A stretch of DNA of 64,000 nt from Bacteroidales bacterium (GTDB lineage Bacteria > Bacteroidota > Bacteroidia > Bacteroidales > JAADJA01): the NCBI GenBank assembly GCA_020052415.1, contig JAGVPB010000013.1, positions 1-64,000 of the forward strand, in the 5' to 3' direction. Under the pieces are notes generated by a model that had not been told where the DNA came from, ran no database searches, and saw only the letters and a program-made list of their open reading frames with translations. The position numbers were made by a program, and so were the translations under genes. Shown here piece after piece: positions 5,361 to 49,657 of the stretch (positions are counted from its first letter, which is position 1; each line of letters starts with the position of its first letter).

Positions 5361-5427
5361 ATTATTTAGTTTTAATCAATCATTTTTTATTCCACCGCTT
5401 CCGAAAACCTTCTTGCCTAAGCCTTTA

Positions 5428-5480
5428 CCGCAGCATGTCCATCAGCCTTGGCTTTAGCGTTGGTGCGACCTGTGGCTTTT
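5428..5480. repeat. Palindromic repeat R1 (TA-island family)
   Basis: First of four ~53-bp elements in the same orientation (5428, 6082, 6519, 7540). The shared pattern on the plus strand is a left arm GGCAAGTC, then TTCCAGCCTTGGCCTTAGCG, then a right arm GCGACTTGTGGC. The arms can pair as CAAGTC/GACTTG. R1 is the most diverged copy (GCATGTCCATCAGCC...GCGACCTGTGGC). It lies 37 bp beyond the stop of the ORF6N gene. Confidence 0.7.
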
Positions 5481-6030: not shown

Positions 6031-6081
6031 AATTTTAACTCGAACGTTGTCACTAATTGTGATAAGCTTTTCCGGTACTTT

Positions 6082-6133
6082 TGCCGCAAGTCTTCCAGCC
6101 TTTGCCTTAGTGTTGGCGAGACTTGTGGCATTG
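6082..6133. repeat. Palindromic repeat R2 (TA-island family)
   Basis: Same element as R1, R3 and R4: arms GCAAGTC and GACTTGTGGC around TTCCAGCCTTTGCCTTAG. It lies between the ORF6N gene and the orphan antitoxin, 55 bp beyond the antitoxin stop. It is read through in the false N-terminal extension of the ORF6N frame. Confidence 0.75.
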
Positions 6134-6188: not shown

Positions 6189-6392
6189 TCAAACCTTCTC
6201 TTTAACTTCTTCCCAACTCACATTATTCCCGGGATTATTCGTGTAGGAGTCGAGGCGTTCATTCAGTATCGCCTTATGTCCATCGCTAATCGCAGCCTCC
6301 TCAGCTTCCCCTGAAATACTATCCCAGATGGTTTGAACCAGGTGAAGACGCTCTTCAACACTGAGCTTTAAAATATCCTTTATTTCTGTCAT
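6189..6392 (-). CDS. Addiction-module antitoxin of the Unstab_antitox/TIGR02574 type, orphan
   Basis: A 67-residue protein with the typical layout of this small antitoxin family: an N-terminal KLSVEERLHLVQTIWDSI helix, AILNERLDSYTNNPGN in the middle, and the C-terminal VSWEEVKEKV. In complete modules a RelE/ParE toxin gene follows directly. Here the stop is followed by palindrome R2 and then the ORF6N gene, so no toxin partner is present. It may act as an orphan antitoxin or be a remnant. Confidence 0.8.
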   Translation of the reverse strand: MTEIKDILKLSVEERLHLVQTIWDSISGEAEEAAISDGHKAILNERLDSYTNNPGNNVSWEEVKEKV

Positions 6393-6518: not shown

Positions 6519-6573
6519 GCTGCGGCATGTCTTCCAACCCAAGCCTTAGCCTTGGCGCGACTTGTGGCATTTC
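6519..6573. repeat. Palindromic repeat R3 (TA-island family)
   Basis: Copy of the R element: GCGGCATGTCTTCCAACC, then GCCTTAGCCTTGGCGCGACT, then TGTGGC. It lies between the orphan antitoxin and the first HEPN/MNT pair, about 130 bp 3' of the MNT stop. Confidence 0.75.
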
Positions 6574-6705: not shown

Positions 6706-7023
6706 TCAAACTGCGTTTATCTTTATCTCTTTACCGTATTTAACGATTTCATTTACCAGAGGATTTGACATGTCAAAGTCCTTTTCCCGGAATGGGTGTG
6801 GCTCGATACGGCTGTCAATATTCCTGCGGACCCGCATTAATTCCAGTTGTATGTCGAGTAAATTGGGATAATCGTTAAGTACCACAGCAATGTCAATATC
6901 GCTGTCATCGGTATAATTTCCTCTTGCGTAGGAACCAAAGAGAATTACTTTGACCAGATCAAAATTGTCTTTCAAAGCTCCCGCATATTTCTGAGCAATT
7001 GCTAAAGCATCAGTTTTATCCAT
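6706..7023 (-). CDS. MNT-type nucleotidyltransferase (antitoxin of HEPN/MNT pair)
   Basis: A 105-residue minimal nucleotidyltransferase. The signature ILFGSYARGNYTDDSDIDIA near residue 27 supplies the GS motif and the two catalytic Asp residues (DSDID). In known HEPN/MNT systems this protein neutralises the HEPN RNase toxin, in studied cases by adding AMP to it. The gene overlaps the end of the upstream HEPN gene by 22 bp, so the pair is translated together. The toxin comes first here, the opposite of the pair at 7.6-8.4 kb. Confidence 0.9.
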   Translation of the reverse strand: MDKTDALAIAQKYAGALKDNFDLVKVILFGSYARGNYTDDSDIDIAVVLNDYPNLLDIQLELMRVRRNIDSRIEPHPFREKDFDMSNPLVNEIVKYGKEIKINAV

Positions 7024-7409
7024 GAGCGTAATGTTTCAATTTTATTAATCCATTCTTTTGTAAAGTCGGGAGTGCACAGAGAATAAAACTCTCTTTTATA
7101 ATCATCATAACGTGCATTTATGTTAAAGGATGAAATTTTATCGAACCAATCCGACTGTTCCCTGGTCATTTCGATATTACATAATTCCGACAGCCGGTAA
7201 AGATTATGAATAAAAGGTGCATGTTTCCCGTATTTGTTGACGTAAATAGCTTTGAGCAATTTTTCAATTGACAGATGTCCTAAAAACAATGCCCATCCGT
7301 ATGATCCGGAAGTATATAAAGCCTGCATTGTGCGAAAATCATCTTCAGAAGTATCAATCCAATGTTTTACGATTTTTTCAACATTAATTCCGTTGCTATC
7401 TTCAATCAT
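7002..7409 (-). CDS. HEPN-domain protein (toxin of HEPN/MNT pair)
   Basis: A 135-residue all-helical HEPN-domain protein, with the typical DDFRTMQALYTSGSYGWALF opening and HLSIEKLLKAIYV, followed by HAPFIHNLYRLSEL where the conserved His of the HEPN RNase motif is expected. The family acts as RNases in toxin-antitoxin systems. It overlaps the MNT gene downstream by 22 bp. It is one of two HEPN/MNT pairs within 1.7 kb; the two HEPN proteins are clearly different in sequence, so they are not a recent duplication. Confidence 0.88.
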   Translation of the reverse strand: MIEDSNGINVEKIVKHWIDTSEDDFRTMQALYTSGSYGWALFLGHLSIEKLLKAIYVNKYGKHAPFIHNLYRLSELCNIEMTREQSDWFDKISSFNINARYDDYKREFYSLCTPDFTKEWINKIETLRSWIKLML

Positions 7410-7539: not shown

Positions 7540-7593
7540 GCTACGGCAAGTCTTCCAGCCTTGGCCTTAGCGTTGGCGCGACTTGTGGCTTTC
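7540..7593. repeat. Palindromic repeat R4 (TA-island family)
   Basis: The clearest R copy: left arm ACGGCAAGTC, TTCCAGCCTTGGCCTTAGCG, right arm GCGACTTGTGGC. The right arm ends only ~7 bp from the stop of the HEPN gene at 7601. Confidence 0.78.
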
Positions 7594-13853: not shown

Positions 13854-13978
13854 GTTTGGTAGTTATTTTCAGGGCGGTAAAATTACTTAATTCCCTGATT
13901 CCTTCCGAAGCTGTAAATCAGGATTAGAATGATGTGACAAAAGCGTTCCTTATGTGGAATAATGAACTTACTAAACTT

Positions 13979-14129: not shown

Positions 14130-14142
14130 AAACTTCAAACCT

Positions 14143-22301: not shown

Positions 22302-24677
22302 TTAAAACTGAATCCTCCAAACGCCCAATGGGTAAAATCCCATCTTATAAGTCTTAACGATCTCACCGGTAACGATATCAATCCTGTAAAGATAGACATA
22401 GGTATAATTAGCACGGTATTGAAGGTCAATATAAAATTGCATGTTGAATCCTTTTTCGTTTCTCCTTATTCCGAACCTGAAGCTGCCTCTAAGGTAGTCT
22501 TCATATTTTTCCTGATAAGCCCTGTTCCAGTCGTAAACAACTTCTCTATTTGTAACAGTTGCCTGCTGATCAAAGGGAACATAAGGCCGGCCACCCGCCC
22601 ACGTCATTCGTAATCCCAGGATCAGAATCCGGTTTTTACGTTTTCCAAGAGGCAGCTCATAACCGGCAACACCATTCAAAATATAATTGCAATTAAAAGA
22701 AGTGCTTCTTTCGGTTCCATCATAACCTTTATACTTCGATTGGAAAAGCGAACCGGTAAACAGGAAATAATAATTTCGGTCAAAAAATTTTTCCAGTGTC
22801 AGTTCAAGCCCGTAGTTGGTGCCTGTTCCATTATTAACCAGGCTGTCCTGGCGATCAACAAAGTATTGGGTACCTTCGTTCAGGATAGAATATTGAGGAA
22901 TGCTTTCCGAAACCGGGATATTGTATAAATGCTGGTAATAAGTTTCGGCTTTTAACCTGAGGTTCTCAGCTATAAGGAAATTGTAACCCAGAACAAAATG
23001 AAGGCTCTTTGAAAAATCAAGTTGGCGGTTCGAAAGAACAGATTTCCCATCAGTATCCAGTGATTCTACATAATACATCATCCGGGGCTGCATCTGGCTG
23101 TGCATACCCATTCCGAAATTGAAAGTTTGTAAAGGGCTGATCTCCCACAAAAGTCCGGCCCTTGGTTCTAAAGATACTGAAGAGTTAAGGGTCAGGTATT
23201 GAAAATTCAATCCAAGGTAACTGGTAAGCCTGTAGATATATCTTCGTTCCCACTGGCTATATGCTCTCAGGAGGCTGAATAAATCCCTGCTATCCGTTTC
23301 AATGCGGTAATTTCCTTTAAAAAAAGTGCTGTCGGAATAATCTACATCGTACTTATCTCCTGTTATCCCGAATGCGAAGTTATTTTTTGCATCAATTTTC
23401 TTCTTTAATGAACTGGTGATGGTATATTTTAATTCAGTGGATTTTTCACCCGCCCAGTTGAATTTTTCAGGTGATGTTAGACCGAAAGTATCAATTTGAG
23501 TAGAGACATTGGAGCCGACAAAAGAGAGATCGGTTTTGATGCGGGTGGATTCATTAAAAAAATATTGATTAGAAATTCCGAAAGAGAGGACGGCTGAACC
23601 GGTATTGATATCTTCACCATGTGTTTCAAATGTCCAGTCTTCCTGGTCGGATTCGGAATCAAGGATTTTAATCCGGCTGGTGCCTCCAATTCCAATCAGG
23701 CTGAATGTTCCGGCGTTCTTTGTTGGGAAATTCAGCTTAATAGAAAGATCCTGGTATTTGGCGCTTTCATCCAGCTCGACACCAAGCTTTTCAAGGATAT
23801 CTACAAACGAGTATCTGTAAGCTGCAAGGTAAGACGACCCGCTTTTTCTTGAAACCGGGCCCTCTGTCCCGAATTCAAGTCCATTGAAACCCATCTGCGT
23901 CCAGTATTCACGACGCTCAGTATTTCCCGTTCGCATTTTGAGGTCGAAAATTCCGGCAAGCGCATTTCCATATTCTGCCGGAAAGGCTCCGGTCAGAAAA
24001 TCGGAATTGGTGAGAAGATTTGTATTTATCACTGAAATAGGCCCACCTGTAGTTCCGAGTGCTCCGAAATGATTCGGATTGGCAATCTCGATTCCATCCA
24101 TTCGATACTGAAGACCCATGGACGAATTGCCTCTGATTATGATATCATTCCTGTTATCGCGCGACGACAGTACTCCGGCGTAGTTGGCTGCCATTCGGGC
24201 GGGATCACCATAGCTGCCTGCATATTTATCGGTTTCCTCGATGGTGAATGAACGGGCACTCACCAGCGCCATAAGGTTCAATGGTTTATCCTTCCGGATT
24301 TCACTGCTGATTGTGACCTCGCCTGCTGTATAAATATTTTCTTCAAGCTCAATCTTTAGAACCGTTTCTTTTGCACTTGATACAATCAGGTCAGTAAGAT
24401 CGGTGGATTGATAACCAATAAAGCTTACTCTCAGACTTTGCCGTCCTGACGGCACATTTTTCAGGACGAAATTTCCACTTAGGTCGGTAACTGTGCCATT
24501 TAAAGGATCAGAATTAACCAGGATAACATTAGCTCCAGCCAAAGGAACCTGGGAGGTTTTATCTACGACTATTCCTTTGATGATCTGAAAGAAACCAGTT
24601 TGACACTGCAATGTAACCGTTGCGGATAAAATCGAAATGAATATAAGAAAAACACTTTTTTGAACTGAGTATAGCAT
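22302..24677 (-). CDS. TonB-dependent receptor with carboxypeptidase-like domain
   Basis: A 791-residue outer-membrane receptor: signal peptide to about residue 26, regulatory domain (KGIVVDKTSQVPLAGANVIL, SFIGYQS), plug (IIRGNSSMGLQYRMDGIEIA, FLTGAFPAEYGNALAGIFDL) and a long beta-barrel ending FYPLGVWRIQF with the terminal aromatic residue needed by the BAM machinery. There is no SusD partner nearby, so the substrate is unlikely to be a typical SUS glycan. The ligand is unknown. Confidence 0.9.
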   Translation of the reverse strand: MLYSVQKSVFLIFISILSATVTLQCQTGFFQIIKGIVVDKTSQVPLAGANVILVNSDPLNGTVTDLSGNFVLKNVPSGRQSLRVSFIGYQSTDLTDLIVSSAKETVLKIELEENIYTAGEVTISSEIRKDKPLNLMALVSARSFTIEETDKYAGSYGDPARMAANYAGVLSSRDNRNDIIIRGNSSMGLQYRMDGIEIANPNHFGALGTTGGPISVINTNLLTNSDFLTGAFPAEYGNALAGIFDLKMRTGNTERREYWTQMGFNGLEFGTEGPVSRKSGSSYLAAYRYSFVDILEKLGVELDESAKYQDLSIKLNFPTKNAGTFSLIGIGGTSRIKILDSESDQEDWTFETHGEDINTGSAVLSFGISNQYFFNESTRIKTDLSFVGSNVSTQIDTFGLTSPEKFNWAGEKSTELKYTITSSLKKKIDAKNNFAFGITGDKYDVDYSDSTFFKGNYRIETDSRDLFSLLRAYSQWERRYIYRLTSYLGLNFQYLTLNSSVSLEPRAGLLWEISPLQTFNFGMGMHSQMQPRMMYYVESLDTDGKSVLSNRQLDFSKSLHFVLGYNFLIAENLRLKAETYYQHLYNIPVSESIPQYSILNEGTQYFVDRQDSLVNNGTGTNYGLELTLEKFFDRNYYFLFTGSLFQSKYKGYDGTERSTSFNCNYILNGVAGYELPLGKRKNRILILGLRMTWAGGRPYVPFDQQATVTNREVVYDWNRAYQEKYEDYLRGSFRFGIRRNEKGFNMQFYIDLQYRANYTYVYLYRIDIVTGEIVKTYKMGFYPLGVWRIQF

Positions 24678-24767
24678 TTAGCGAAAATAGTAAATATTGG
24701 ATGTAAAAACCTGTTTTAACCGGGAAAAGATTCAAAATCCACAACACCTGATTCTAAAAAATTGATT

Positions 24768-25067
24768 TTAGGCAACTTTAATTTTGGCTTTCCTGATTGA
24801 TTTATAAAATTCTGGTTTATCTGAAAATACTTCCTCTAAATCAAAATCGTTCTGAAGTCCAAGCCAAAATTTCGCAGAATTGCCAAAATAATTGCCAAGC
24901 CTCAAAGCGGTATCTGCGGTTATTCTTCTTTTCCCCTTTATAATCTTGCTTATTCTGGTTTGCGGAATATTAATATCAGCCGACAACCGGTAAGCTGAAA
25001 TTTTCATTGGATTTAAAAACTCCTCAAGCAATATCTCACCAGGATGTATGTTCTTCAAATGATTCAT
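24768..25067 (-). CDS. higA: HigA-type antitoxin
   Basis: A 99-residue helix-turn-helix protein of the HigA addiction-module family: HPGEILLEEFLNPMKISAYR, PQTRISKIIKGKRRITADTA, LRLGNYFGNSAKFWLGLQND. It represses its own operon and neutralises a toxin. Normally a ~95-residue RelE-like HigB lies directly upstream; here the upstream gene (11 bp away) codes for an unrelated 125-residue protein. HigA is therefore either an orphan or paired with a new kind of partner. Confidence 0.9.
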   Translation of the reverse strand: MNHLKNIHPGEILLEEFLNPMKISAYRLSADINIPQTRISKIIKGKRRITADTALRLGNYFGNSAKFWLGLQNDFDLEEVFSDKPEFYKSIRKAKIKVA

Positions 25068-25078
25068 AACTCATATTA

Positions 25079-25456
25079 TTAGTGTAAATTAATAAGATCA
25101 TTTACCTTTTCTAATGATAATCTTTCCCACGACGGGTTCATTAGTTTTGTTCCATCCCACTCAAAATTTACTCTATCGAAGGTTTCCTTAAAAAACTCCA
25201 GGCTTGATTTCCGGTCGGGGTTGTGCTCAATGAAAATCAATTTTTCATGATTAATATTATATTTATTAATCAGTTCCGTAGCTAACTTATCAACACGGCT
25301 TGTAACCGAGCTTCCCGGATTGGAGTCGTACAATTCTGTGGCAATAACAATAGTTTTGTCTATTTTTTCAATGATTTTAAGACCGCAAAAGGATGGTACA
25401 TCCCAGGCGCCTTTGAAGTGGTAAATCTGGTCAATGTATTGTGAGTGAGAAATCAT
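25079..25456 (-). CDS. Unknown 125-residue protein paired with HigA
   Basis: A soluble protein with the segments TIVIATELYDSNPGSSVTSR, VDKLATELINKYNINHEKLI and FIEHNPD. These suggest an alpha/beta fold with a conserved NPGSS..T loop and an IEHxP motif. It has none of the RelE/HigB traits (no small basic beta-sheet fold ending with a conserved Arg/His set). It lies 11 bp upstream of higA in the same direction, in the position of a HigB toxin. No known family name can be given with confidence; a new toxin or an unrelated passenger are both possible. Confidence 0.6.
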   Translation of the reverse strand: MISHSQYIDQIYHFKGAWDVPSFCGLKIIEKIDKTIVIATELYDSNPGSSVTSRVDKLATELINKYNINHEKLIFIEHNPDRKSSLEFFKETFDRVNFEWDGTKLMNPSWERLSLEKVNDLINLH

Positions 25457-25488
25457 GCAATAGTGATTAATTCGAAAAAAAAATCATA

Positions 25489-25520
25489 AGTGGCAGTAGC
25501 AGCGGCAGTAGCAGTTTAGA
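25489..25520. repeat. GGCAGTAGCAG microsatellite, left bracket of the IVP-like gene
   Basis: A run of GGCAGT/AGCAG units between the HigA-partner gene and the four-helix-bundle gene. It is the inverse complement of the larger CTGCCACTGC run on the other side of that gene (25955-26061). Confidence 0.6.
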
Positions 25521-25540
25521 AATGTAATCGGAGATTTCCA

Positions 25541-25912
25541 TTATTTGGGTAGGAATTTTTCAGGATTATCTGCCATTTTACCCAACATCTTTCCTACCTC
25601 CTCATATCTTGTCGTCAATGATATTTTAATGTCCTCAGTAATATATTTGCAGTCTTTCGCAAAATCAATCCAAACCAATGATTCACTTGCTTCTCCATCA
25701 GCATCCGTTATTTTGCTGGTAAAATGCTTAGGATATCTTCTTTTTCTATAAGCTTCAGCAATATTTGTACATACCGATCTTGATGATCTCCTGATTTGAT
25801 CAGTCAAAGAGTAAGTTTCTTCCTTTGGAAACTTTTTAGAAAGTTCGAAAATCTCCATTGCTAATTGATAAGCAAGTTGATAAACCTTCAGACTTTTGTA
25901 ACCGCCATTCAT
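25541..25912 (-). CDS. Four-helix bundle protein (23S rRNA intervening-sequence protein family)
   Basis: A 123-residue all-helical protein of the IVP/TIGR02436 family: YKSLKVYQLAYQLAMEIFEL, FPKEETYSLTDQIRRSSRSV, then the NIAEAYRKRR signature and SLVWIDFAKDC. The family occurs in intervening sequences of 23S rRNA genes, as the Avd partner in diversity-generating retroelements, and as stand-alone copies. I start at the Met at 25912 (MNGGYKSLK); 18 codons further upstream also stay open but do not fit the family. Both flanks are microsatellites of opposite sense, as if the gene moves as a small cassette. Confidence 0.85.
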   Translation of the reverse strand: MNGGYKSLKVYQLAYQLAMEIFELSKKFPKEETYSLTDQIRRSSRSVCTNIAEAYRKRRYPKHFTSKITDADGEASESLVWIDFAKDCKYITEDIKISLTTRYEEVGKMLGKMADNPEKFLPK

Positions 25913-25954
25913 TATGTAAAAATTAGTGATTATTATATTTTGTATTTCATTTTC

Positions 25955-26061
25955 CTGCACCTGCACCTACTCCTACTATTACTCCTGCCGCTGCCACTGC
26001 CACTGCCGCTGCCACGGCCGCTGCCACTGCCCCTGCTACTGCCGCTGCCGCTGCTGCTATC
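25955..26061. repeat. CTGCC(A/G)CTGC microsatellite, right bracket of the IVP-like gene
   Basis: About 105 bp of CTGCACC, CTACTC and CTGCCACTGCCGC units with point changes. It lies upstream of the four-helix-bundle gene and directly touches the 3' end of the radical SAM gene. Confidence 0.8.
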
Positions 26062-27322
26062 TTCTAATATCTTTTCCAAAACTTTGATCAATAAGTTCCT
26101 TTTTCGGTGAACGGTAAGTCCCGTCGGTCATCTCTTTCTCTATCACCTTCATCAGCAGCTTGAACATTTTTTGCTCCTGACTTTCATTCCGGTAAAATTC
26201 ATTCCATGCAAAATGATAAAGGCTTTGTAATCTCTCAGAAGTCATGTGTTTGGGTTGAAATACAACCTTGCCAGCATTGTAATCATTCCAGTCAAAATTG
26301 AATATTCTCTTTTCTTTAATCAGATCATCCCAGGCCTTGGTATGCGGGAAAGGCGTCATGACAGTAAATTCCGCAAGATCAAGGTCAATCTCCAGTAAAA
26401 AATCAATCAAACGTTTGAGGTCATCTTCTGTTTGATTATCCATTCCTAAAAGGATGGTTCCCTCAACTGCAATTCCATGATCGTGATACCGTTTGATACG
26501 GTCCTTGATAAAGTTCGAAGTATCGAAAATTGCCTGGTAAACATACCACGCTCCTGCCTGTGCTGCAAGGTCAAGTACCTCGGGCTTATCCTCGATGGTA
26601 TGGCTGCACCATTTCTTCTTAAATGGTATCATCGTCCTGAAAAGTTCTTTTTCCCATTCCGTATCCTGTGCCAGTGAATTATCAACGACAAACATCCGGT
26701 TGTTCTCCATTTTATCCAACTCTTCAGCAACTTTATCAAATGGCCTTGGGCGAAATTTCCTGCCTCCCAAATACGAAACAGCACAAGGATAACAACTGAA
26801 CCTGCATCCTCTGGAAGCATGAAACAGATCGAGCATTTGAACACCTTTGTGATAATACAATTCCTTTTGAAGAATGTCCCTTCTTGCAGGACCAATCAGC
26901 CCGATATCAGGTGGATAGGGAAGGTAATTGTAAACTTTTTTCAACCGGTTATTTTTAAAATCGTTAAAAACTTCCTCCATTCTGCCTTCGGCCTCTCCGA
27001 GGAAGATGCTGTCGGCATGTTCAAGTGTTTCTTCAGCATGAAGCATAGTGGAAATTCCGCCAAAAATTACTTTTAAACCTCTTTTGCGGTATTCATCAGC
27101 AATTTCCCAGCCTCTTTTAATCTGTGAGGTAAGCATCATTGATATGCCGACAAATTCAGCCGTTTCATCGAAATTAAGCTTCTGAACATTTTCATCAATG
27201 AATTCAACTTCAACATAATCGGGCAATGCAGCAGCAAATACAATAGGCCCGTGAGGCGGCAGATTAAACTGGGTTTGTTCCGGTAGTTTTTCCCACTTCG
27301 GGTATATCAGTTGGAACTTCAT
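26057..27322 (-). CDS. B12-binding-domain radical SAM protein
   Basis: A 421-residue enzyme. Residues 1-150 form a cobalamin-binding-like Rossmann domain (EFIDENVQKLNFDETAEFVG, GLKVIFGGISTMLH). The radical SAM domain has the CxxxCxxC cluster in GCRFSCYPCAVSYLGG near 178, binding a 4Fe-4S cluster that splits S-adenosylmethionine. Members do methylations, ring changes and other difficult C-C chemistry. It is the last gene of the minus-strand biosynthetic locus, 14 bp after the sulfotransferase gene. The stop lies at the edge of the CTGCC microsatellite. Confidence 0.92.
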   Translation of the reverse strand: MKFQLIYPKWEKLPEQTQFNLPPHGPIVFAAALPDYVEVEFIDENVQKLNFDETAEFVGISMMLTSQIKRGWEIADEYRKRGLKVIFGGISTMLHAEETLEHADSIFLGEAEGRMEEVFNDFKNNRLKKVYNYLPYPPDIGLIGPARRDILQKELYYHKGVQMLDLFHASRGCRFSCYPCAVSYLGGRKFRPRPFDKVAEELDKMENNRMFVVDNSLAQDTEWEKELFRTMIPFKKKWCSHTIEDKPEVLDLAAQAGAWYVYQAIFDTSNFIKDRIKRYHDHGIAVEGTILLGMDNQTEDDLKRLIDFLLEIDLDLAEFTVMTPFPHTKAWDDLIKEKRIFNFDWNDYNAGKVVFQPKHMTSERLQSLYHFAWNEFYRNESQEQKMFKLLMKVIEKEMTDGTYRSPKKELIDQSFGKDIRR

Positions 27323-27336
27323 AGTTTTAATTTTAG

Positions 27337-28416
27337 TCAGCGTGAGTATTTGTAGTGATAAAAATGTGCGGCCAGTTTGGATCTTATTATTGCTTTTTCA
27401 TCATTGGTAATCGAATAGCTGTTCTTACGGTAATCACTCAGTTCGGTAAGAAATTGCCTTACTTTCTGTTCGAACTGACTGGAATATTTCAATCCGATGG
27501 CACGATATATTTTTTTCAGTTCATTTATGGGATCAGTTTCAAGGTCCTCAAAGTCAACCTCACAAAAAATCCCATCGGGTAACACAGCAAGGTCTGTCCT
27601 GATTTTAGTAAGCATCCTGTCCAGAACTATTGCAACATCTTCAACCCCCGGATTTATCCACTTACCATTGAGCATATTTTGTGTCGCAACAATGTTCCAC
27701 ATGTGTATGGTTGAGGGAACTACCCGGTAAGGATGCCGGTGAATGTGAATGAACCGGGCACTGGGAAATACTTCTCTCAGCAATTGAATCCTCAAAGAAT
27801 GAAAGGGATTCTTCAGTACTATTCTTTTTTTCGATTCAAAGGCAAGTTTTCGGCAAAAATTCATTATAGCCGTTTGCCAGGTTATCTTGTCAGCAGGTTC
27901 AAAATTGTTGTATCGCTTGAGAAAATATGTATTTGTCTTTGGAAAAATTATATCTTTCAGGGGTGAATCAAGCGTTAATTTAAAAATCGCATACTCATCT
28001 TCCTGGGGCTCATCTATACCGAGTTTAACATTGTCCATCGGGCGCCGGGAGCTTATCATTGCCGACATAACAGGTTGGTAATATTTTTTTGAAACCAGGA
28101 AACTATCGGGTAATGAAACATGAAATACCGTCGGAGCAACAAGATTTTCATCAAGATTAAGCAGCTGGTGCAGAAATGTGCTTCCAGTCCGCCAATGGCC
28201 TATAATGATGATCGGATCATCCGGGACCGGAAAGTTTTGCAATTGAGTTTCAAATTTCTGCCGCTCCATGCGCTTAAATATAGATGCCCAAATACCATTT
28301 TGTAAAAGGAAAAGTGTTCTGACAAGCAGCCGGGGTTTGATGGAAATCCCATTCCTTATTAATAGTTTCATCATAACTCCGAAACTGGTCCCGGCAAGCA
28401 TGTAAGAGTGCTTCAT
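27337..28416 (-). CDS. Sulfotransferase family protein
   Basis: A 359-residue PAPS-dependent sulfotransferase. The 5'-phosphosulfate loop is IIIIGHWRTGSTFLHQLLNL near residue 70; the 3'-phosphate-binding part is FIHIHRHPYRVVPSTIHMWN near 230. Hydrophobic N-terminal residues may hold it at the membrane. It would move a sulfonate group to a hydroxyl or amine of a small molecule or lipid. Its place between the ACP gene and the radical SAM gene suggests late modification of the product of this locus (inference). Confidence 0.88.
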   Translation of the reverse strand: MKHSYMLAGTSFGVMMKLLIRNGISIKPRLLVRTLFLLQNGIWASIFKRMERQKFETQLQNFPVPDDPIIIIGHWRTGSTFLHQLLNLDENLVAPTVFHVSLPDSFLVSKKYYQPVMSAMISSRRPMDNVKLGIDEPQEDEYAIFKLTLDSPLKDIIFPKTNTYFLKRYNNFEPADKITWQTAIMNFCRKLAFESKKRIVLKNPFHSLRIQLLREVFPSARFIHIHRHPYRVVPSTIHMWNIVATQNMLNGKWINPGVEDVAIVLDRMLTKIRTDLAVLPDGIFCEVDFEDLETDPINELKKIYRAIGLKYSSQFEQKVRQFLTELSDYRKNSYSITNDEKAIIRSKLAAHFYHYKYSR

Positions 28417-30582: not shown

Positions 30583-30690
30583 GTTAAATATTTCAGCAGT
30601 AAGCCTTGGGCCAACCTTGTTTCTGCACTTGCTCATTTCGGAGTACCGGCGGCAATCGAAAGGAAATTTACAGGTAAAAAATTTTATTAA
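30583..30690 (+). pseudogene. Possible gene remnant
   Basis: An open stretch of 35 codons in the gap between the HTH gene and the TA module reads as a protein C-terminus (SSKPWANLVSALAHFGVPAA...ERKFTGKKFY, then stop), with good codon use but no start. It is on the opposite strand to its neighbours. I cannot name the family. It may be the end of a gene cut by the TA insertion. Confidence 0.25.
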
Positions 30691-30695: not shown

Positions 30696-31058
30696 TTATT
30701 TTATCAGGTGCGATTTTTTTATTCTTAGCCCTTTTTTGTTCAAAACAGTAAAATTGTTATTCAGCTTATCAAAGTGACTCTGTATCGTTCTAATAGCTGT
30801 TTCAACACGATATTGTCTGCTCAAATCACTTAACCGAATCAGTAATATACCGTAATGTTTAAGCTTTAACCGAAAGGTTAACTCTCCAAAGTCTTTGTCT
30901 TCAGTTATGAGAAGGCATTTATAATCCGTGGCAATTTTTAAGACCTCAGTATCTGTTAATCCTGAGAAATCTTCTAAAACCGAAATTACCTCAAATCCGT
31001 TTTGCCTCAACCCTGTAATGATTCCGAAATCAACACTTTCATCGGCCAAAAGTTTCAT
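30696..31058 (-). CDS. DUF5615 family PIN-like toxin
   Basis: A 120-residue PIN-fold protein: MKLLADESVDFGIITGLRQN at the start with the first acidic residues, then TDTEVLKIATDYKCLLITED and KDFGEL, which supply the other acidic residues of the Mg-dependent nuclease site. DUF5615 proteins pair with DUF433 partners in VapBC-like modules. I use the Met at 31058, 1 bp after the DUF433 stop (TGAAATG). The frame also has Met codons at 31070 and 31088, which would overlap the partner gene. Confidence 0.85.
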   Translation of the reverse strand: MKLLADESVDFGIITGLRQNGFEVISVLEDFSGLTDTEVLKIATDYKCLLITEDKDFGELTFRLKLKHYGILLIRLSDLSRQYRVETAIRTIQSHFDKLNNNFTVLNKKGLRIKKSHLIK

Positions 31059-31059
31059 T

Positions 31060-31293
31060 TCAGGAAGCATTGGATAAAAGCAGTTCATTCTTTACCGAGT
31101 CGGCTGCAAATAAAAGGCAGGCAACGATGTCTTCTTCTTTCAGATTAGGATAGGCATTCAATAAATCCACCACCGAATCACCTGCGGCGAGTTTCTCAAG
31201 TATCAAATCCACCGGGATTCGGGTGTGAGCTATTACGGGCTTTCCGAACAATTTGCCGGGGTCCGATTCGATATGTAAAGTCCAGTCAACCAT
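31060..31293 (-). CDS. DUF433 family antitoxin-like protein
   Basis: A 77-residue protein of the DUF433 family: DPGKLFGKPVIAHTRIPVDL followed by ILEKLAAGDSVVDLLNAYPN and LKEEDIVACLLFAADS, a winged helix-type DNA-binding fold. It is the usual partner and presumed antitoxin of DUF5615 PIN-like proteins. The toxin gene follows at once. The module lies with its promoter side towards the TonB-tail/palindrome repeats. Confidence 0.88.
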   Translation of the reverse strand: MVDWTLHIESDPGKLFGKPVIAHTRIPVDLILEKLAAGDSVVDLLNAYPNLKEEDIVACLLFAADSVKNELLLSNAS

Positions 31294-31349: not shown

Positions 31350-31409
31350 AACGGCTATTTCCCGCAGGCTAAGTTAAATTTTATGGCCGGGGTGAGGTTG
31401 AAGTTTTAG
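31350..31409 (+). pseudogene. TonB-receptor C-terminal fragment, copy D
   Basis: Plus-strand frame reads NGYFPQAKLNFMAGVRLKF followed by TAG, matching the last 19 residues of the intact receptor encoded at 45483-47945 (DGYFPQAKFNFMAGVSLKF). No upstream receptor sequence is present. Palindrome F1 begins 12 bp after the stop. Confidence 0.8.
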
Positions 31410-31420
31410 ATTTTATACAA

Positions 31421-31470
31421 GGCACCAGTCCTGCTTACCCACTTGCCTTAGCTTGAAGACTGGCGCCAGT
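31421..31470. repeat. Palindrome F1 (GGCACCAGTC...GACTGGCGCC)
   Basis: Arms GGCACCAGTC and GACTGGCGCC pair over 10 bp with one mismatch. The loop of ~28 bases contains TTACCCACTTGCC. Related copies are F2, F3 and F4, each placed 5-12 bp after a TonB-receptor stop. Confidence 0.8.
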
Positions 31471-31505
31471 TGGGTTGGTTTACCGGAATCCACTAATCAT
31501 CATTC

Positions 31506-31538
31506 TTTTTTATGGCTGGTGTGAGTTTGAAGTTTTAG
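31506..31538 (+). pseudogene. TonB-receptor C-terminal fragment, copy E
   Basis: Plus-strand frame reads FFMAGVSLKF then TAG, the last ten residues of a TonB receptor, and is followed 10 bp later by palindrome F2. It forms a tandem with copy D and F1. Confidence 0.7.
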
Positions 31539-31548
31539 CTGTAAGCTC

Positions 31549-31597
31549 GGCACCAGTCTCTCTTACCCGCTTGCCGTGGCTGGAAGACTGGCGCCAG
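31549..31597. repeat. Palindrome F2 (GGCACCAGTC...GACTGGCGCC)
   Basis: Same arms as F1. On the minus strand it reads GGCGCCAGTCTTCCAGCC, which shares the AGTCTTCCAGCC block with the R elements at 6-7.6 kb. Confidence 0.8.
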
Positions 31598-31710
31598 ACG
31601 GGGTTTGATTTTGTTTTGGATTTTTTTTCAAAAATTCAACAAAGTCGGCAACTTCCTCTCACAAGTCCTTAGGTAATGAATTTATCTCTAATTTTAAAGA
31701 AATTTTATTT

Positions 31711-31739: not shown

Positions 31740-31952
31740 ATGTCGCAACAACAATATATCACTGACAAAAAAGGAAAAAAGATAAGCGTAGTAGTTCCTG
31801 TTAAAGATTACAATAAGCTGATTGAGGCATGGGAAGAACTTGAGGATATTAAGGCTTATGATGCTGCCAAATCGAAAAAGTCTGATCCTATAGAAGCTCA
31901 AATTGCCTTTGAGGAGGTTGAAAATTACTTCAGTAGCAAAAAAATCCAATAG
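31740..31952 (+). CDS. Type II antitoxin (RelB-like)
   Basis: A 70-residue protein: ITDKKGKKISVVVPVKDYNK looks like a short beta strand followed by a helix with EAWEELEDIKAYDAA, the usual layout of RelB/Phd-like antitoxins, where the C-terminal tail binds the toxin. The Met at 31740 is preferred over 31716 because the latter is too close to the promoter element. The stop (TAG) overlaps the GTG start of the toxin gene. Confidence 0.8.
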   Translation: MSQQQYITDKKGKKISVVVPVKDYNKLIEAWEELEDIKAYDAAKSKKSDPIEAQIAFEEVENYFSSKKIQ

Positions 31953-32212
31953 TGCTGTACCAAATCGTTGTTGAACGTTTAGTAATTAAATATCTGAAAC
32001 GAATTCCTGAAACAGATTACTACCTTATTAAAAATAAAATTAAATCGCTGGCAAATGACCCCCGGCCGAATGGCTCAATAAAACTGAAAGGCAGAAATGC
32101 TTATAGGATCAGGCAGGGAGATTACAGGATAATTTACGAGATCAGAGATAAAGCTCTTTTAATTATTGTAGTTACAGTGGGGCATCGAAAGGAAATTTAC
32201 AGGATTACATAA
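31952..32212 (+). CDS. RelE/ParE family toxin
   Basis: An 86-residue RelE-type mRNA interferase: IVVERLVIKYLKRIPETDYY, then SLANDPRPNGSIKLKGRN and AYRIRQGDYRIIYEI, with HRKEIYR at the end, where the catalytic Arg and His/Lys residues of RelE lie. The start is GTG, one base inside the antitoxin stop, so translation is coupled. It is complete, unlike the RelE-like toxin at 44215. It points away from the TonB tails and separates the two halves of the biosynthetic locus. Confidence 0.9.
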   Translation: MLYQIVVERLVIKYLKRIPETDYYLIKNKIKSLANDPRPNGSIKLKGRNAYRIRQGDYRIIYEIRDKALLIIVVTVGHRKEIYRIT

Positions 32213-43663: not shown

Positions 43664-43725
43664 GTTTCACGATCCAGGTTCATCACCTTGTTCGGCTCAG
43701 GCTCTGCCTTAGTCGAACCTATCCT

Positions 43726-43745: not shown

Positions 43746-43760
43746 ATGATCTATCTGCTC

Positions 43761-43808
43761 TGGTGCATTCTTTCATTCACGGCATGCGGGAAAGCGAGAC
43801 TGATGCCG
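43761..43808. repeat. Palindrome F4, degraded copy
   Basis: Reads TGGTGCATTCTTTCATTCAC, GGCATGCGGGAAAGCGAGAC, TGATGCCGG; aligns with F2 and F3 (GGCGCCAGTCTTCCAGCCAC ... GACTGGTGCC) with one gap and several changes that weaken the stem. It lies 9 bp after the stop of TonB tail C. Confidence 0.6.
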
Positions 43809-43817
43809 GGCGATAAA

Positions 43818-43905
43818 TTAAAACTTCAAACTCACCCCAGCCATAAAATTGAATTTTGCCTGCGGTGAATAATTATTCATCTTGTTTTTCATGTTTTTTG
43901 CATAT
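43818..43905 (-). pseudogene. TonB-receptor C-terminal fragment, copy C
   Basis: Minus-strand frame ends KNKMNNYSPQAKFNFMAGVS-LKF-stop, matching the last ~25 residues of the intact receptor (ENKMDGYFPQAKFNFMAGVS-LKF). Homology fades upstream into a stop codon. It lies between the aor gene and the RelE-like TA module. Confidence 0.8.
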
Positions 43906-43999: not shown

Positions 44000-44218
44000 A
44001 TGAATATTCAGGCTGAAAAATTGGAAATCATGAAAATGGTGCTCGATACTGAGAATCCATCAATACTTCAAAAAATTAAAAGTTTATTTATTAAGGAAAA
44101 AGATTTCTGGAATACTCTGACTGCCAATGAGAAGGAAGAAATCCAAAAAGGTATAGATGAGTTGGAAAGGGGTGAGATATATCCATATGAGGCTGTCATG
44201 AAGAAGCACAGGAAATGA
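44000..44218 (+). CDS. Antitoxin of RelE/ParE-type module
   Basis: A 72-residue protein with the layout of small antitoxins paired with ParE-like toxins: an N-terminal EKLEIMKMVLDTENPSILQK helix, ANEKEEIQKGIDELERGEIY, then YEAVMKKHRK. It overlaps the toxin start by 4 bp (ATGA). The partner toxin carries a premature stop, so this antitoxin may be without a target. Confidence 0.82.
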   Translation: MNIQAEKLEIMKMVLDTENPSILQKIKSLFIKEKDFWNTLTANEKEEIQKGIDELERGEIYPYEAVMKKHRK

Positions 44219-44520
44219 TAAGAAAAGTAGTTTTATCAAAAAGAGCCAAAACAAAACTTGAAAACTTACTTCTTTTTCTTGAGACGGAATGGTCCATGTC
44301 AGTCAAAAATGAATTTATTGAAAAGTTAGATCATGCTTTGCAAATTATCCAAAATAATCCGGAAAGTTCTCCAAAAACCTCTTCTCTGAAAGGCCTGCAT
44401 AAATGTGCCGTCACCAAATAAAACACGCTTTATTATCGCTATATAGTTTCATCCATCGAAATAATCGCAATTTTTGATTCAAGGCAAGATCCAAATAAAC
44501 TCAAGAAAGAGTTCAAATAG
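44215..44520 (+). pseudogene. RelE/ParE-type toxin interrupted by one nonsense codon
   Basis: The frame from ATG 44215 runs KVVLSKRAKTKLENLLLFLE, ... SLKGLHKCAVTK, then TAA at 44419-44421. Reading on in the same frame gives NTLYYRYIVSSIEIIAIFDS-RQDPNKLKKEFK-stop, the rest of a normal ParE-like toxin (family members read VTKQ-TLYYR at this place). A single C-to-T change (CAA to TAA) therefore cuts a 101-residue toxin after residue 68 and removes the C-terminal catalytic strand. The antitoxin is intact. Confidence 0.85.
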
Positions 44521-44558
44521 TTATTTTTTCCCTGGATAGAATATTTCAATCTGATTAA

Positions 44559-44728
44559 TTAAAACTTCAAACTCACCCCTCCCATAAAATTAAACTACGC
44601 CTGCGGGAAATAGCCGTTCATTTCGTATTCTGTATTATCATAAAAATAGCGATATACTCAGGCTTTGGATTCGTATTCCACATTAAAAATGTTGTTCAGG
44701 CCGAGCATAAGGTCAATTTACCTGATAT
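44559..44728 (-). pseudogene. TonB-receptor C-terminal fragment, copy B
   Basis: The minus strand codes, in one frame, for IDLMLGLNNIFNVEYESKA, stop, VYRYFYDNTEYEMNGYFPQA, stop, FNFMGGVSLKF, stop. It aligns along about 56 residues with the end of the intact receptor (IDLMLSLNNIFNLEYESNAW ...). At least two codons have become stops (Trp to TGA, Lys to TAG), and a third lies at the edge of the match (Gln to TAA). No palindrome follows it. It lies between the two TA modules. Confidence 0.88.
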
Positions 44729-44795: not shown

Positions 44796-45017
44796 ATGGA
44801 AGCATATAAAACTCATACACAGTATAATAAGGATATTCAAGCATGGTTTGATAATTTACCATTGCAGGAAGGCCAGGAGATCGAAGTGATCGTTATTCCA
44901 ACTGGAAGTAAAAAGAAAAAACAATCTTCTGCGAAAAATCTTACAGGAACAGTAATTGAATACATTGATCCATTTAAGCCTGCTGTCGCAGAAAAAGATT
45001 GGGAGGTGATAAATTGA
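44796..45017 (+). CDS. VapB-like antitoxin
   Basis: A 73-residue protein: beta-rich N-terminus (QEGQEIEVIVIPTGSKKKKQ) as in AbrB-fold antitoxins and an acidic tail (YIDPFKPAVAEKDWEVIN) that would fill the toxin groove. The stop overlaps the TTG start of the PIN toxin gene. Confidence 0.8.
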   Translation: MEAYKTHTQYNKDIQAWFDNLPLQEGQEIEVIVIPTGSKKKKQSSAKNLTGTVIEYIDPFKPAVAEKDWEVIN

Positions 45018-45406
45018 TTTTACTGGATACACATATCTGGGTTTGGTGGGTAAATAAATCAGGTGATTTAAAGCCACAGCAACTGGAAATTTTAAATAAA
45101 GCTATTGATTCGGGATTGTTTATCAGTGTTATTTCGGTTTGGGAAGTCGCCAAGTTGGTGGAATATAACAGACTGAAATTGAGTATTTCTATTGATGACT
45201 GGCTTGATAAAGCCCTGAAATATCCCGGTATAAACAAAGTAGAATTATCAAATGAAATCATTATTCAGTCAACTCGCTTAAAAGGTGATTTTCATAAAGA
45301 CCCTGCAGACCAGATAATTGTTGCTACCTCAAATATTATCGGAGTTCCTTTATTAACTGCAGATGACAAAATCTTATCCTATCCCTATATAAAATTAGCA
45401 CATTGA
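45014..45406 (+). CDS. vapC: VapC-type PIN-domain toxin
   Basis: A 130-residue PIN RNase: ILLDTHIWVWW with the first catalytic Asp, SVISVWEVAKLVEYNRLKLS with the Glu, and DFHKDPADQIIVATSNIIG plus LLTADDKI with the remaining acidic residues. VapC proteins cut tRNA or rRNA. The start is TTG at 45014, chosen because GGGAGGTGAT (45001-45010) is a strong ribosome-binding site at the right distance, unusual for this phylum; another TTG at 44999 lies over that site. All catalytic residues are kept, so it is likely active. Confidence 0.9.
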   Translation: MILLDTHIWVWWVNKSGDLKPQQLEILNKAIDSGLFISVISVWEVAKLVEYNRLKLSISIDDWLDKALKYPGINKVELSNEIIIQSTRLKGDFHKDPADQIIVATSNIIGVPLLTADDKILSYPYIKLAH

Positions 45407-45423
45407 TAATGTAAGTTTTCCGT

Positions 45424-45474
45424 CTGGCGCCAGTCTTCCAGCAAAAGTCTGTGGGTAAGCAGGACTGGTGCCAG
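45424..45474. repeat. Palindrome F3 at the 3' end of the thiamine-type TonB receptor
   Basis: CTGGCGCCAGTC pairs with GACTGGTGCCAG over 12 bp with one mismatch; the loop holds TTCCAGC and GTGGGTAAGC. It lies 8 bp after the receptor stop, in the same relation as F1, F2 and F4 to the receptor fragments. It may be a receptor-linked terminator-like hairpin, though no T run follows. Confidence 0.82.
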
Positions 45475-45482: not shown

Positions 45483-47945
45483 TTAAAACTTCAAACTCAC
45501 CCCTGCCATAAAATTAAACTTCGCCTGAGGGAAATATCCGTCCATCTTATTTTCCTGGTTGCCGGTATAGTACCGATAAACCCATGCATTGGATTCATAT
45601 TCCAAATTAAAGATATTGTTCAGGCTGAGCATGAGGTCAATTTGCCGGATAACACCCGTTTTTATGGTATAATAAAATTTTAAATCGTTAATAAAATAAG
45701 GATCGAGACTGCGGTCAACGTTTGAAGTATTATCTATGAATTGACTTCCGACGTACTTCGATTGTAAACTTACCTTTAAAGCCTTCAGGGGTTCCCATGT
45801 AAGATTGCTGCCTCCGATGATTTCGGGTGAAAAAGAAATGTCGGTAGTACCCAAAGTATCAATGTTTTGTTCCGGCCATGTATCCCAGTTATCAGTGTAG
45901 GCCACAAAGTCAATGATCTTATTTTGGCTAAGGGTTAGATTCATGTCCCACCGGAGCTGTTTTAGAATTTGTATTCCACCGCTTAGTTCAATGCCTGTCC
46001 GGTAGCTCTTAGGAACATTCATTAGGATAGGATCGCCTACATTGTTGATTTTTCCAGTCAGAACCAGCTGATCGCGGTATTTCATGTAATAGTAGTTTGC
46101 TTCAAGGCTGATGTTTTTACTTTGAAATATATAACCTGACTCAAAATCAATAAGCTGTTCTGCGCTTATCTGTTGCCCAGGATCTGCATCCCGATAAGCC
46201 GACCGATTAGGCTCCCGGTGAGCAATGGCAACCGATACATACAAACTGTTGCTTTTATCGAGTGTGAAAAACACACCTCCTTTGGGGTTGAAAAAAGTAA
46301 ATGTATGTTCCTGTGTCAGATCGCGAAGGTCGTCATGGGTTCCTTCGATGGAATAATCTATATTCCGCAACTGCACGTCAGCATAAAGGTTCAACAGTTT
46401 GGTGAGTTGGTAATTTGCTTTGGCATAAACATTATAATCGGTCTTTTTGCCGGTACTTTCGTACCAGGGTTTGTCAATAAAACTGTAGCTGCCGTGTTCC
46501 ACCCAGATGATGTAGCCGTAGTGGTCGCCTTTATAGGAATTCCATCCTCCGCCCAAGGTTGCATTGATTTTATTCCGGGAATAATTGAGGGCAACATTCA
46601 ATCCATAAAAATCATTGTCTAACCATTTCTGATTGATCAGGTTTGTACTTGTAATTGTGTCCGAACCTATAATGACATCATTTAAACCGTAATCAGCAAA
46701 ATCCTCCCCATAGTTAAAACTTTCATAATATCCTTTTCCTTTGGTATAAAATAAAGCCGAAGTAAGGTTCAGAGCCATACCGAACTGATGTGCAAAATGT
46801 AGTTGGTAGTAATCCTGCTGATAATTGTCGGTTTGATTTGCATAAGTATATAAGTTAAACGTACGATTATCCGATTGGAGCATATGAAGAGTTTCTTCGT
46901 GGGCATAAAGGTTATGCTCCTCATATCGCATCATTCCAGCAGTATCGTTATTGATCCTGACACTTGGCACCCCGTTCCATGACTGGTAAGTTTGTTCCCT
47001 TCCGGAAGTAACAATGGCTTTCAGAATTGTTTTCTCACTAAAATAACCACCCGAAACATAGAACGACTTTAGGTCACTCCAGCCGCGATCTATATAACCA
47101 TCAGATTCAATTGCCGAAAGCCTTCCGTCGAAAGCCCACTTGCTGTTAATGAGTCCTGATCCAAACTGAAGCGTGTTCTTAAAGGTATTGTAGGAACCAA
47201 TTCCACTGTTTATCCCGGCATAAGGATCCGAATTCAGTTTTGTCGTCTGAATATTAATGCTTGCTCCAAAGGCCGCAGCACCATTGGTGGATGTACCCAC
47301 GCCGCGCTGTATCTGGATGTTATCAACCGAAGATGCAAGATCAGGAAGATCAACGAAGAAAACATCCTGCGATTCAGCATCATTCACCGGCACTCCGTTC
47401 ATCGTCACATTGATCCTTGTGATGTCGGTTCCCCTGATCCTGATGCCTGTGTAACCCACGCCGGCGCCGGCATCGGAGGTTGTGACTACCGAAGGGGTGA
47501 TTTGCAGAATAAAAGGAAGATCCTGTCCGGTGTTTTGCCGTTCAATATCTTTATTTTCCAAAGATGTAAAGGTGGAAGGTGTTTTTTCATGAACACGGGT
47601 AGATTGAACGATCACCTCATCGCTTATCACCGGGCTGTACTCCAATACAAAATCTAAGTTCGCGTTGTTGATGATTTCCACCTTCTGTGATAATGTTTTG
47701 TACCCGATATAAGAAATCCTGAGCTGATATTCGCCCTGCTTCAGTCCCGAAATTACATAAGTCCCATCAGAAGCCGAAATGGTTGAAAATCGTGAGTTCT
47801 GGACTACGATGTTTGCACCGGGCAGTGGCTTATTGCTTGTCTTGTCCGAAATTTTTCCTGAAAGGGTGAATTGAGGAAAAACCATTTGCGGTGCGATTAC
47901 AAAAAGAATTGCAATCCATGCAGAAATTAATTTTTGTCGTTTCAT
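45483..47945 (-). CDS. TonB-dependent receptor under TPP riboswitch control (probable thiamine receptor)
   Basis: An 820-residue outer-membrane receptor: signal peptide (1-25), carboxypeptidase-like domain (SGKISDKTSNKPLPGANIVV, SYIGYKTLSQKVEI), plug (LPFILQITPSVVTTSDAGAG, GIRIRGTDITRINVTMNGVP, IQIQRGVGTSTNGAAAFGAS) and a barrel ending FPQAKFNFMAGVSLKF. A TPP riboswitch lies ~70 bp upstream, so it is made when thiamine pyrophosphate is low and probably imports thiamine or a precursor (inference from the riboswitch). Its last ~60 codons are repeated as decayed copies downstream. Confidence 0.92.
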   Translation of the reverse strand: MKRQKLISAWIAILFVIAPQMVFPQFTLSGKISDKTSNKPLPGANIVVQNSRFSTISASDGTYVISGLKQGEYQLRISYIGYKTLSQKVEIINNANLDFVLEYSPVISDEVIVQSTRVHEKTPSTFTSLENKDIERQNTGQDLPFILQITPSVVTTSDAGAGVGYTGIRIRGTDITRINVTMNGVPVNDAESQDVFFVDLPDLASSVDNIQIQRGVGTSTNGAAAFGASINIQTTKLNSDPYAGINSGIGSYNTFKNTLQFGSGLINSKWAFDGRLSAIESDGYIDRGWSDLKSFYVSGGYFSEKTILKAIVTSGREQTYQSWNGVPSVRINNDTAGMMRYEEHNLYAHEETLHMLQSDNRTFNLYTYANQTDNYQQDYYQLHFAHQFGMALNLTSALFYTKGKGYYESFNYGEDFADYGLNDVIIGSDTITSTNLINQKWLDNDFYGLNVALNYSRNKINATLGGGWNSYKGDHYGYIIWVEHGSYSFIDKPWYESTGKKTDYNVYAKANYQLTKLLNLYADVQLRNIDYSIEGTHDDLRDLTQEHTFTFFNPKGGVFFTLDKSNSLYVSVAIAHREPNRSAYRDADPGQQISAEQLIDFESGYIFQSKNISLEANYYYMKYRDQLVLTGKINNVGDPILMNVPKSYRTGIELSGGIQILKQLRWDMNLTLSQNKIIDFVAYTDNWDTWPEQNIDTLGTTDISFSPEIIGGSNLTWEPLKALKVSLQSKYVGSQFIDNTSNVDRSLDPYFINDLKFYYTIKTGVIRQIDLMLSLNNIFNLEYESNAWVYRYYTGNQENKMDGYFPQAKFNFMAGVSLKF

Positions 47946-48017
47946 GGCAATAAAATTTAATGATACAATGACTTTAAGTCATCAAATAGGGAATTGCCAT
48001 ACTTTGTTTGATTTTTT

Positions 48018-48190
48018 GTTTCCCTACGCCGGCATTACCCGGATCAGGTTACTGCTCATTGAATACAAGCAAAGAGTATGTTCTCAGCCCGCAGATTTCA
48101 GAAAATGAATGTTAAACTTTAAATCTACTGTCTGGCATCTAACATCTAACATCTAACTTCTAAAATCTTTCAGGGCACCCCTGTTTGAAT
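48018..48190 (-). promoter_or_regulatory. TPP riboswitch (thi box)
   Basis: On the minus strand, in order: GGGGTGCCC (48173-48181), then GGCTGAGA (48082-48089), then CCTGATCCGGGTAATGCCGG followed by CGTAGGGA (to 48021). These are the conserved blocks of the thiamine-pyrophosphate aptamer. The part between the first two blocks (the P3 arm) is ~85 nt and holds an ATGTTAG microsatellite. It controls the TonB receptor downstream. Confidence 0.93.
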
Positions 48191-48248
48191 CGACGACACA
48201 AAGATAAAACATATTGCCACAGATTACACAGGTTTTCACAGATTAAAA

Positions 48249-49407: not shown

Positions 49408-49436
49408 AAATTACTCTGTGTTTTGAGTTCAATTAT

Positions 49437-49587: not shown

Positions 49588-49657
49588 AATGTTCATTGTT
49601 CAAAGTTCGGTTTCTCATTTCTGACACCTATCTTCTCAGGACTGACTTATGATAAAA

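Follow-up and report, generated by a model that had tools for sequence, protein, structure and literature searches.

The window analysed here is the whole 64,000-nt stretch of a Bacteroidales contig. At positions 31351-31602, it presents two tandem units on the plus strand. Each consists of a receptor C-terminal tail, a stop codon, and a palindrome. Toxin-antitoxin (TA) modules lie on both sides, a DUF433/DUF5615 module on the minus strand (30696-31293) and a RelB-like/ParE module on the plus strand (31740-32212). The original prediction, made from the DNA alone, had described this arrangement, and we found it as described. The features at this site are the following (bit scores refer to R1, a covariance model of the hairpin introduced below).

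30644..30674, plus strand: probable RelE gene-end remnant (84% over 31 nt to the toxin gene 3' end, 32173-32203)
30696..31088, minus strand: DUF5615 PIN-like protein, toxin-type partner (PF18480, 7.1e-21)
31060..31293, minus strand: DUF433 protein, antitoxin-type partner (PF04255, 1.9e-22)
31351..31409, plus strand: receptor tail copy 1, some 19 codons plus a stop (84% identity between 31351-31469 and the receptor end with its palindrome)
31419..31470, plus strand: REP hairpin 1, then TGGG at 31471-31474 (R1, 69.4 bits)
31508..31538, plus strand: receptor tail copy 2, some 10 codons plus a stop (90% to copy 1; 93% identity with the receptor end across 30 nt)
31547..31598, plus strand: REP hairpin 2, then CGGG at 31599-31602 (R1, 65.3 bits)
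31740..31952, plus strand: RelB-like antitoxin (PF18506, 5.8e-8)
31952..32212, plus strand: ParE/RelE-family toxin (PF05016, 3e-10)

The spacing of the two units is 128 nt. Their tails (31379-31409 and 31508-31538) share 90% identity over 31 aligned nt, and their palindromes 83% over 54 nt. Both palindromes have the form GGCACCAGTC-27 nt-GACTGGCGCC, at 31421-31467 and 31549-31595 of the plus strand. The gaps from stop to palindrome are 11 and 10 nt, within the predicted 10-12 bp. Read in one frame, 31351-31409 translates to GYFPQAKLNFMAGVRLKF, and the receptor ends in ...DGYFPQAKFNFMAGVSLKF. The palindrome 10-mer, with one mismatch at most, occurs 8 times in the window; 100 shuffles gave a mean of 1.44 and a largest count of 6. 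A search of the 4.67-Mb genome for the exact palindrome pattern gave three places, all of them inside the window. The reversed pattern, a control in the same genome search, gave 0 matches.

The focal site was said to hold no intact receptor. This is correct for the site itself, but not for the window. At a distance of 14 kb from the focal units there is an intact donor-type receptor, with its own palindrome and an array of TA genes and further tail copies.

43692..43717, plus strand: copy of a second REP family, adjoining the degenerate REP (second-family search)
43759..43888, minus strand: third receptor tail copy and degenerate REP (76% to the receptor end over 43785-43888; REP 23.5 bits)
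44000..44418, plus strand: small ORF, antitoxin-like by position only (no family matched in Pfam or NCBIfam), and a shortened ParE-like toxin (second ORF, ParE 8.9e-4, below the curated cut-off)
44557..44727, minus strand: decayed 171-nt receptor tail copy with in-frame stops and no REP 3' of it (81% identity)
44796..45406, plus strand: VapBC-like module, a small ORF (no TA family matched) and then a PIN protein (PF01850, 1.9e-11 for 45026-45406)
45423..45474, minus strand: REP directly 3' of the receptor stop, then CGGA (R1, 72.6 bits; palindrome 45472-45426)
45483..47945, minus strand: intact TonB-dependent receptor, donor type of the tails (820 aa; Plug domain PF07715, 7.4e-12)

Receptor tails bearing a REP occur at five loci of the genome: the receptor array, the focal site, C41:99579, C54:120059, and C79:31749. 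This agrees with the claim that the unit was brought into the focal site. A sixth tail, at C79:184507, has no palindrome, and by eye no TA gene is present there. The left ends of the eight tails differ. They lie at -169, -71, -59, -55, -36, -31, -13, and -10 nt from the stop; a ninth, weak alignment (C41:97608, score 35) was left out of this count. The first focal tail matches the resident receptor at 88% and the receptor of the relative G003 at 90%, so that the resident gene is no closer to it as a candidate donor.

We also considered whether a cassette had replaced the receptor end. The displaced-tail identities (60-79%) fail to separate the options, and this idea was abandoned. Insertions seem to be drawn to the end of the receptor gene. 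The listed genus matches include none 3' of the receptor outside the genome under study. In the relative G004, an antitoxin-like gene (Unstab_antitox, 1.7e-4, just below the cut-off) follows the receptor stop directly, on a contig without any REP model match. The relative G009 has a different gene in that place. Upstream of the receptor, at about 48000-48200, a stretch resembles by eye a thiamine (THI-box) riboswitch, and a similar one precedes several relatives' receptors. An Rfam search of the window at gathering thresholds gave no match.

The palindrome belongs to a family of 52-nt hairpins. At E<=0.1, the R1 model, built from 12 genome copies, gives 31 matches in the genome, counting its own 12 seeds; at E<=10 the number is 41. 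In the genus, 14 of 17 genomes, this one included, have matches at E<=0.01. Changes in the stem compensate each other (CCAGTC/GACTGG, CAAGTC/GACTTG, and CGAGTC/GACTCG in a 51-copy alignment). Over these 51 copies, stem covariation is 0.311, compared with 0.125 in shuffles, none of 500 being as high, and slid partners reach at most 0.088. Likewise, 58 cells of the stem are double-changed, against 19.8 in shuffles. One exact consensus pattern matched six stretches, including two further Bacteroidetes MAGs, a Cyclobacteriaceae MAG, and a Chlorobiota MAG. In the window, another group of hairpins lies near its start.

5424..5478, minus strand: weak REP of the first family (20.4 bits)
6080..6131, minus strand: first-family REP with the CAAGTC arm type (61.1 bits; model seed)
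6192..6392, minus strand: addiction-module antitoxin between two REPs (PF09720 and TIGR02574 from the tally; ORF assigned by sequence)
6519..6570, minus strand: first-family REP (52.6 bits; model seed)
6709..7409, minus strand: MNT nucleotidyltransferase and HEPN pair between two REPs (PF01909, PF05168, and NF047752 from the tallies; ORFs assigned by sequence)
7540..7591, minus strand: first-family REP (57.8 bits; model seed)

In the covariance-model listing of this genome, all 12 pairs of REP neighbours less than 1.7 kb apart are direct (of two identical C87 loci, one was entered). However, two REP pairs on C4, which surfaced only in a later search, face opposite ways, so the direct order is less absolute. 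A hand-made list of relatives' pairs, which omits weak matches, holds 9 direct and 8 opposite ones. Two further repeats should be read with caution. The C87 regions 23000-28000 and 102000-107000 (L092 and L093) are an exact inverted duplicate over 3000 of 3000 bases compared, with REPs inside, either real or an assembly artefact. At G013:C275 (L155), a 1.7-kb tandem repeat of an outer-membrane protein gene, a REP, and a HicAB-like pair could be an assembly artefact.

The genus has 33 RAYT transposase matches, and 25 were fetched as loci for flank inspection. The five best-matching loci (G003, G009, G007, G010, and G014:C43; 55-100% identity) have a REP on both sides of the gene. These REPs face opposite ways and lie at most 71 nt from the gene; two of the ten are weak matches (16.5 and 18.5 bits). 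The remaining 20 fetched loci gave 0 flanking REP matches. Outside the 25 are eight shorter RAYT matches, of which G004:C334 has a REP match 28 nt off and another is the C4 stub described below. Two of three RAYT proteins (L148 and L129) present the motifs NHVH, WQ, and YIHNNP, and the third (L154) differs in having YLHNNP as the last of them. Their HuH-Y distance is 86 residues; about 82 is given for subclass 2.6. As excerpted, PMC6006769 lists NH[LIV]H, WQ, and YIH[QN]NP as motifs of RAYT subclass 2.6 (Bertels group 5) in Bacteroidetes. Of the flanks of the gene it says only that they hold atypical structures, further copies of which are scattered through the genome. The motifs of our predicted proteins fit this subclass. 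To judge from sequence relations, the palindrome is the REP of a RAYT family, since the RAYT gene is flanked on both sides in relatives and the motifs fit subclass 2.6.

No intact cognate RAYT was found in the genome under study. The only trace found of a matching one is a 28-aa N-terminal stub between the weak REPs C4:149 and C4:734. The units in this genome are therefore probably fossils, or were mobilised in the past. At C4:149-800 (L096), the decayed RAYT start is followed by an antitoxin-sized ORF (C4:330-527), which was unrecognised by NCBIfam and Pfam and was not counted as TA. Here, cargo may have replaced the transposase body. The RAYTs present in this genome were examined as carriers and rejected: seven Y1_Tnp matches have no REP model match within about 1.5 kb on each side. 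Two of the seven (C2 and C8) carry a second REP family instead (TCGGCTNNGGCTCTGCC..). This second family lies at most about 100 nt from first-family REPs at 3 of 16 places (43692-43717, C54:120153, and C41:43768). One of its copies, at C41:6755 (L279), is near two ThsB-type TIR proteins (PF08937).

We compared the flanks of 71 REP copies, 200 nt on each side. Matches were counted if they began at most 40 nt from both REPs and were in register within 10 nt. Upstream, seven groups of copies match: the receptor tails, C67/C46, 6080/6519 of the window, G014, G007, G012, and the G003 RAYT. Downstream, none does within 40 nt. Orthologous or displaced comM and RAYT ends also match upstream, beyond the seven groups. 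Farther out, one downstream match in register (C41:43859 and 7540 of the window; 38 nt, 82%, 63-65 nt past the REP) makes the one-sidedness less absolute. REPs commonly lie behind genes, as noted in PMC3733652, and so orthologous genes (comM in G003 and G007, and the RAYT loci) account for some of the upstream matches. The left ends of the carried sequence vary between copies, and no hairpin defines them. Altogether, tail-plus-REP units involve the ends of three unrelated genes, those of the receptor, comM, and RAYT. In G012, a decayed comM end with a REP is present, without a comM gene in the 4 kb examined. In G007, a copy of the comM end has no recognised REP.

More precise junctions come from 14 neighbouring REP pairs chosen by hand. 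In three pairs, the repeated piece begins 4-5 nt past the preceding REP, at the end of a short conserved tag: the comM end of G003 (4 nt past, 581 nt, 94%), the RAYT end plus REP of G003 (4 nt past, 100 nt, 99%), and G014 (5 nt past, 326 nt including the REP, 97%). We saw no common left motif on the source side of these three junctions. The other 11 pairs, including the receptor array and the focal pair, have no exact junction; at the focal pair, 37 nt of unrelated sequence separate the preceding REP from the second tail. The tag is visible in the conservation 3' of the REP, with 0.33, 0.59, 0.63, and 0.57 bits at positions 1-4 and at most 0.21 afterwards. A strict NRGG directly past the model end occurs in 28 of 70 copies. 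A GTAG-type guide 5' of the hairpin is absent, with upstream positions at most 0.31 bits over 70 copies; some RAYT-side copies read TAG ahead of the stem. The RAYT and G014 junctions could also have arisen by simple tandem duplication. However, the short ends of receptor and comM genes at foreign sites are hard to explain either by such duplication or by the habit of REPs to lie behind genes.

Considering these results, we think it fairly probable that the focal unit is a RAYT-family REP with upstream sequence carried along by one-ended, REP-terminated mobilisation. The receptor pieces were probably brought by a mobile hairpin family that seems to take with it the sequence immediately upstream. 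Transposition would be one-ended and single-stranded, with the hairpin and its tag as the right end of the unit. A RAYT enzyme of subclass 2.6 would nick behind the tag. The mobilised strand would have its 5' end anywhere in the neighbouring gene and its 3' end at the tag, and would be attached either past the tag of another REP or at some other site. Once a REP had settled behind the receptor stop, receptor tails would spread. TA modules upstream of a REP could be carried likewise, and kept because their loss is punished. In a broader and more tentative form, this might be a Helitron-style gene capture in bacteria. A RAYT-family HUH enzyme would mobilise REP-ended strands that begin anywhere upstream, scattering gene ends and building direct TA arrays without an integrase. 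Helitrons differ from the system proposed here: they occur in eukaryotes, their 5' end is defined, and their enzyme is large and multidomain.

The original prediction had the unit arrive together with the TA genes. In its favor, a TA family is recognised at most 1.5 kb away at four of the five REP-bearing tail loci; the RAYT-linked REP is, however, the better carrier. We mapped TA genes in 3-kb REP windows (one REP per cluster, Pfam E<=1e-3). TA families are present in 10 of 22 REP windows and 1 of 40 random windows (Fisher p = 5e-5). Counting one weak PIN match (0.0021) would give 11, and the random count is at most 2, because the family tallies do not name the member. TA members were placed in windows from the tallies and single scans. 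The random windows, some of them overlapping, were drawn from 19 contigs that make up 2.45 of the 4.67 Mb. Excluded were ORFs running past the window ends, those below 50 or above 260 aa, and those lost to a longer overlapping ORF; ORF6N genes were not counted as TA. Without the model-seed windows, 4 of 15 windows of this genome have TA genes (p = 0.017). In relatives, the count is 3 of 26 REP windows against 0 of 20 controls, some overlapping (p = 0.17; L132 was dropped as belonging to the same cluster as L120). Pooling both gives 13/48 versus 1/60 (p = 9e-5), or 7/41 versus 1/60 without seeds (p = 0.007).

The second REP family, beside two of this genome's RAYTs, served as a further control. 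Of its 11 windows, 2 contain TA genes, and the count becomes 4 of 14 when three windows next to the first family (C54, C77:43692, and C41:43768, the first two with TA genes) are retained; the cluster duplicates C2:19600 and C8:12464 were set aside. The difference between families (10/22 versus 2/11) has p = 0.12. So, the enrichment is not specific to the first family, and we rejected it as proof of carriage. REPs and TA genes share places, and TA carriage by REPs is plausible. In L106, two near-identical small HicB-like ORFs (C39:1188-1388 and 2483-2683) flank a REP-bounded MNT-HEPN pair; the one that was scanned was unrecognised by Pfam.

These counts bear on a reading in which REPs and TA modules gather in tolerant intergenic stretches. 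The tails would have moved with the REP, and the TA genes otherwise. The second-family control, the low proportion in relatives, and the G004 antitoxin-like gene behind the receptor stop on a contig without a REP match are consistent with it. On the other hand, several TA modules are bracketed by two REPs of the same orientation, and the neighbouring pairs of the covariance-model listing are all direct, the two opposite C4 pairs aside. Moreover, in the Chlorobiota MAG a REP lies 60 nt past a ParE/antitoxin pair. We regard such shared hot spots as evenly poised between true and false. They are compatible with REP-terminated mobilisation, and both can hold.

Homologous recombination is a different route, and an improbable one. 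TA circles carrying a receptor 3' piece would cross over in the receptor tail, with the palindrome as a passenger, leaving the order receptor, palindrome, TA, and tail. The 171-nt tail behind VapBC is long enough for a crossover, and it encodes ..EYEMNGYFPQ.., which is found in several relatives' receptors and not in the resident one. However, tails of about 10-59 nt occur at loci without a resident receptor, with their 3' ends at a REP. The same pattern appears with comM and RAYT in other species, with the 4-nt junctions of G003.

An integron-like array, with the palindrome as recombination site and TA modules as cassettes of a site-specific recombinase, is very unlikely. Integrons do hold TA modules between direct palindromic sites, and here too neighbouring sites are mostly direct and the cargo is TA. 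By contrast, the tail travels with the site, the left ends are variable, and no attC core (RYYYAAC/GTTRRRY) is seen by eye. With a Y1 transposase gene bracketed by the site in relatives, we set this reading aside on inspection. Finally, it is scarcely credible that the focal tails are what a deletion left of a receptor gene once present there: the tail has a normal stop, but there are two tails in tandem, the same tail is found at other loci, and no receptor ORF is seen beside the 158-aa gene (ending at 30410) in the flanks of five relatives.

This 158-aa gene also bears on the proposal that the insertion split a biosynthetic locus, which is not supported. Its orthologues in five relatives have other neighbours than here, and the methyltransferase was found in 0 of 5 (flanks of 1.5 kb in four relatives and 0.59 kb in one). 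None of these relatives offered a usable empty version of the focal site for comparison. So far as the feature itself is concerned, it is real and was correctly seen. The main actor appears to be the RAYT-linked REP, and not the TA genes as proposed.

Other repeats in the window are of a different kind. Two 160-nt elements (13978-14137 and 49436-49595) are 93% identical, with inverted ends TTGAGTCCACTCC..GGAGTGGACTCAA, and are MITE-like. An array of 8-bp repeats, TCCAYCAT-like, lies at 57497-57587.

Compared with known systems, the closest is REP/RAYT. Subclass 2.6, in the excerpted PMC6006769, shares with our case the Y1 motifs, the Bacteroidetes host, the hairpin-flanked gene, and the copies elsewhere. 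Inverted REPs flanking the RAYT gene, as at the relatives' genes here, are described in PMC2817692 (excerpt). In contrast, the REPs studied here come with upstream sequence, including unrelated gene ends. The conserved tag is 3' of the hairpin and not a GTAG in front, which is a canonical REP feature, although not stated for subclass 2.6 in the excerpted source. Besides, direct orientation prevails among neighbouring REPs of this genome. IS200/IS605 elements resemble the system in their Y1/HUH enzyme, near-end hairpins, a tetranucleotide closing the right end, and a target tetranucleotide at the left end (PMC6006769, excerpt). However, the piece carried here lacks both a fixed left end and an internal transposase gene.

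In vitro, the TnpA-REP enzyme of E. coli cleaves single-stranded REP on the 5' or the 3' side of the hairpin and links strands together, and REP spread is described as poorly understood (both from PMC8266576). A survey of open-access papers, at listing level, gave no report of REP-linked gene-end capture or of REP-linked TA cassettes. The REP/RAYT system is known, and the apparent taking along of upstream sequence would be its new feature. The carried gene ends trace the process naturally: from them, the side of the REP that moves and the point where a new copy is joined may be read, which makes the mechanism of REP spread testable in vitro. In Bacteroidetes, this could be a route for gene fragments, and perhaps TA genes, to spread without integrases or classical transposons.
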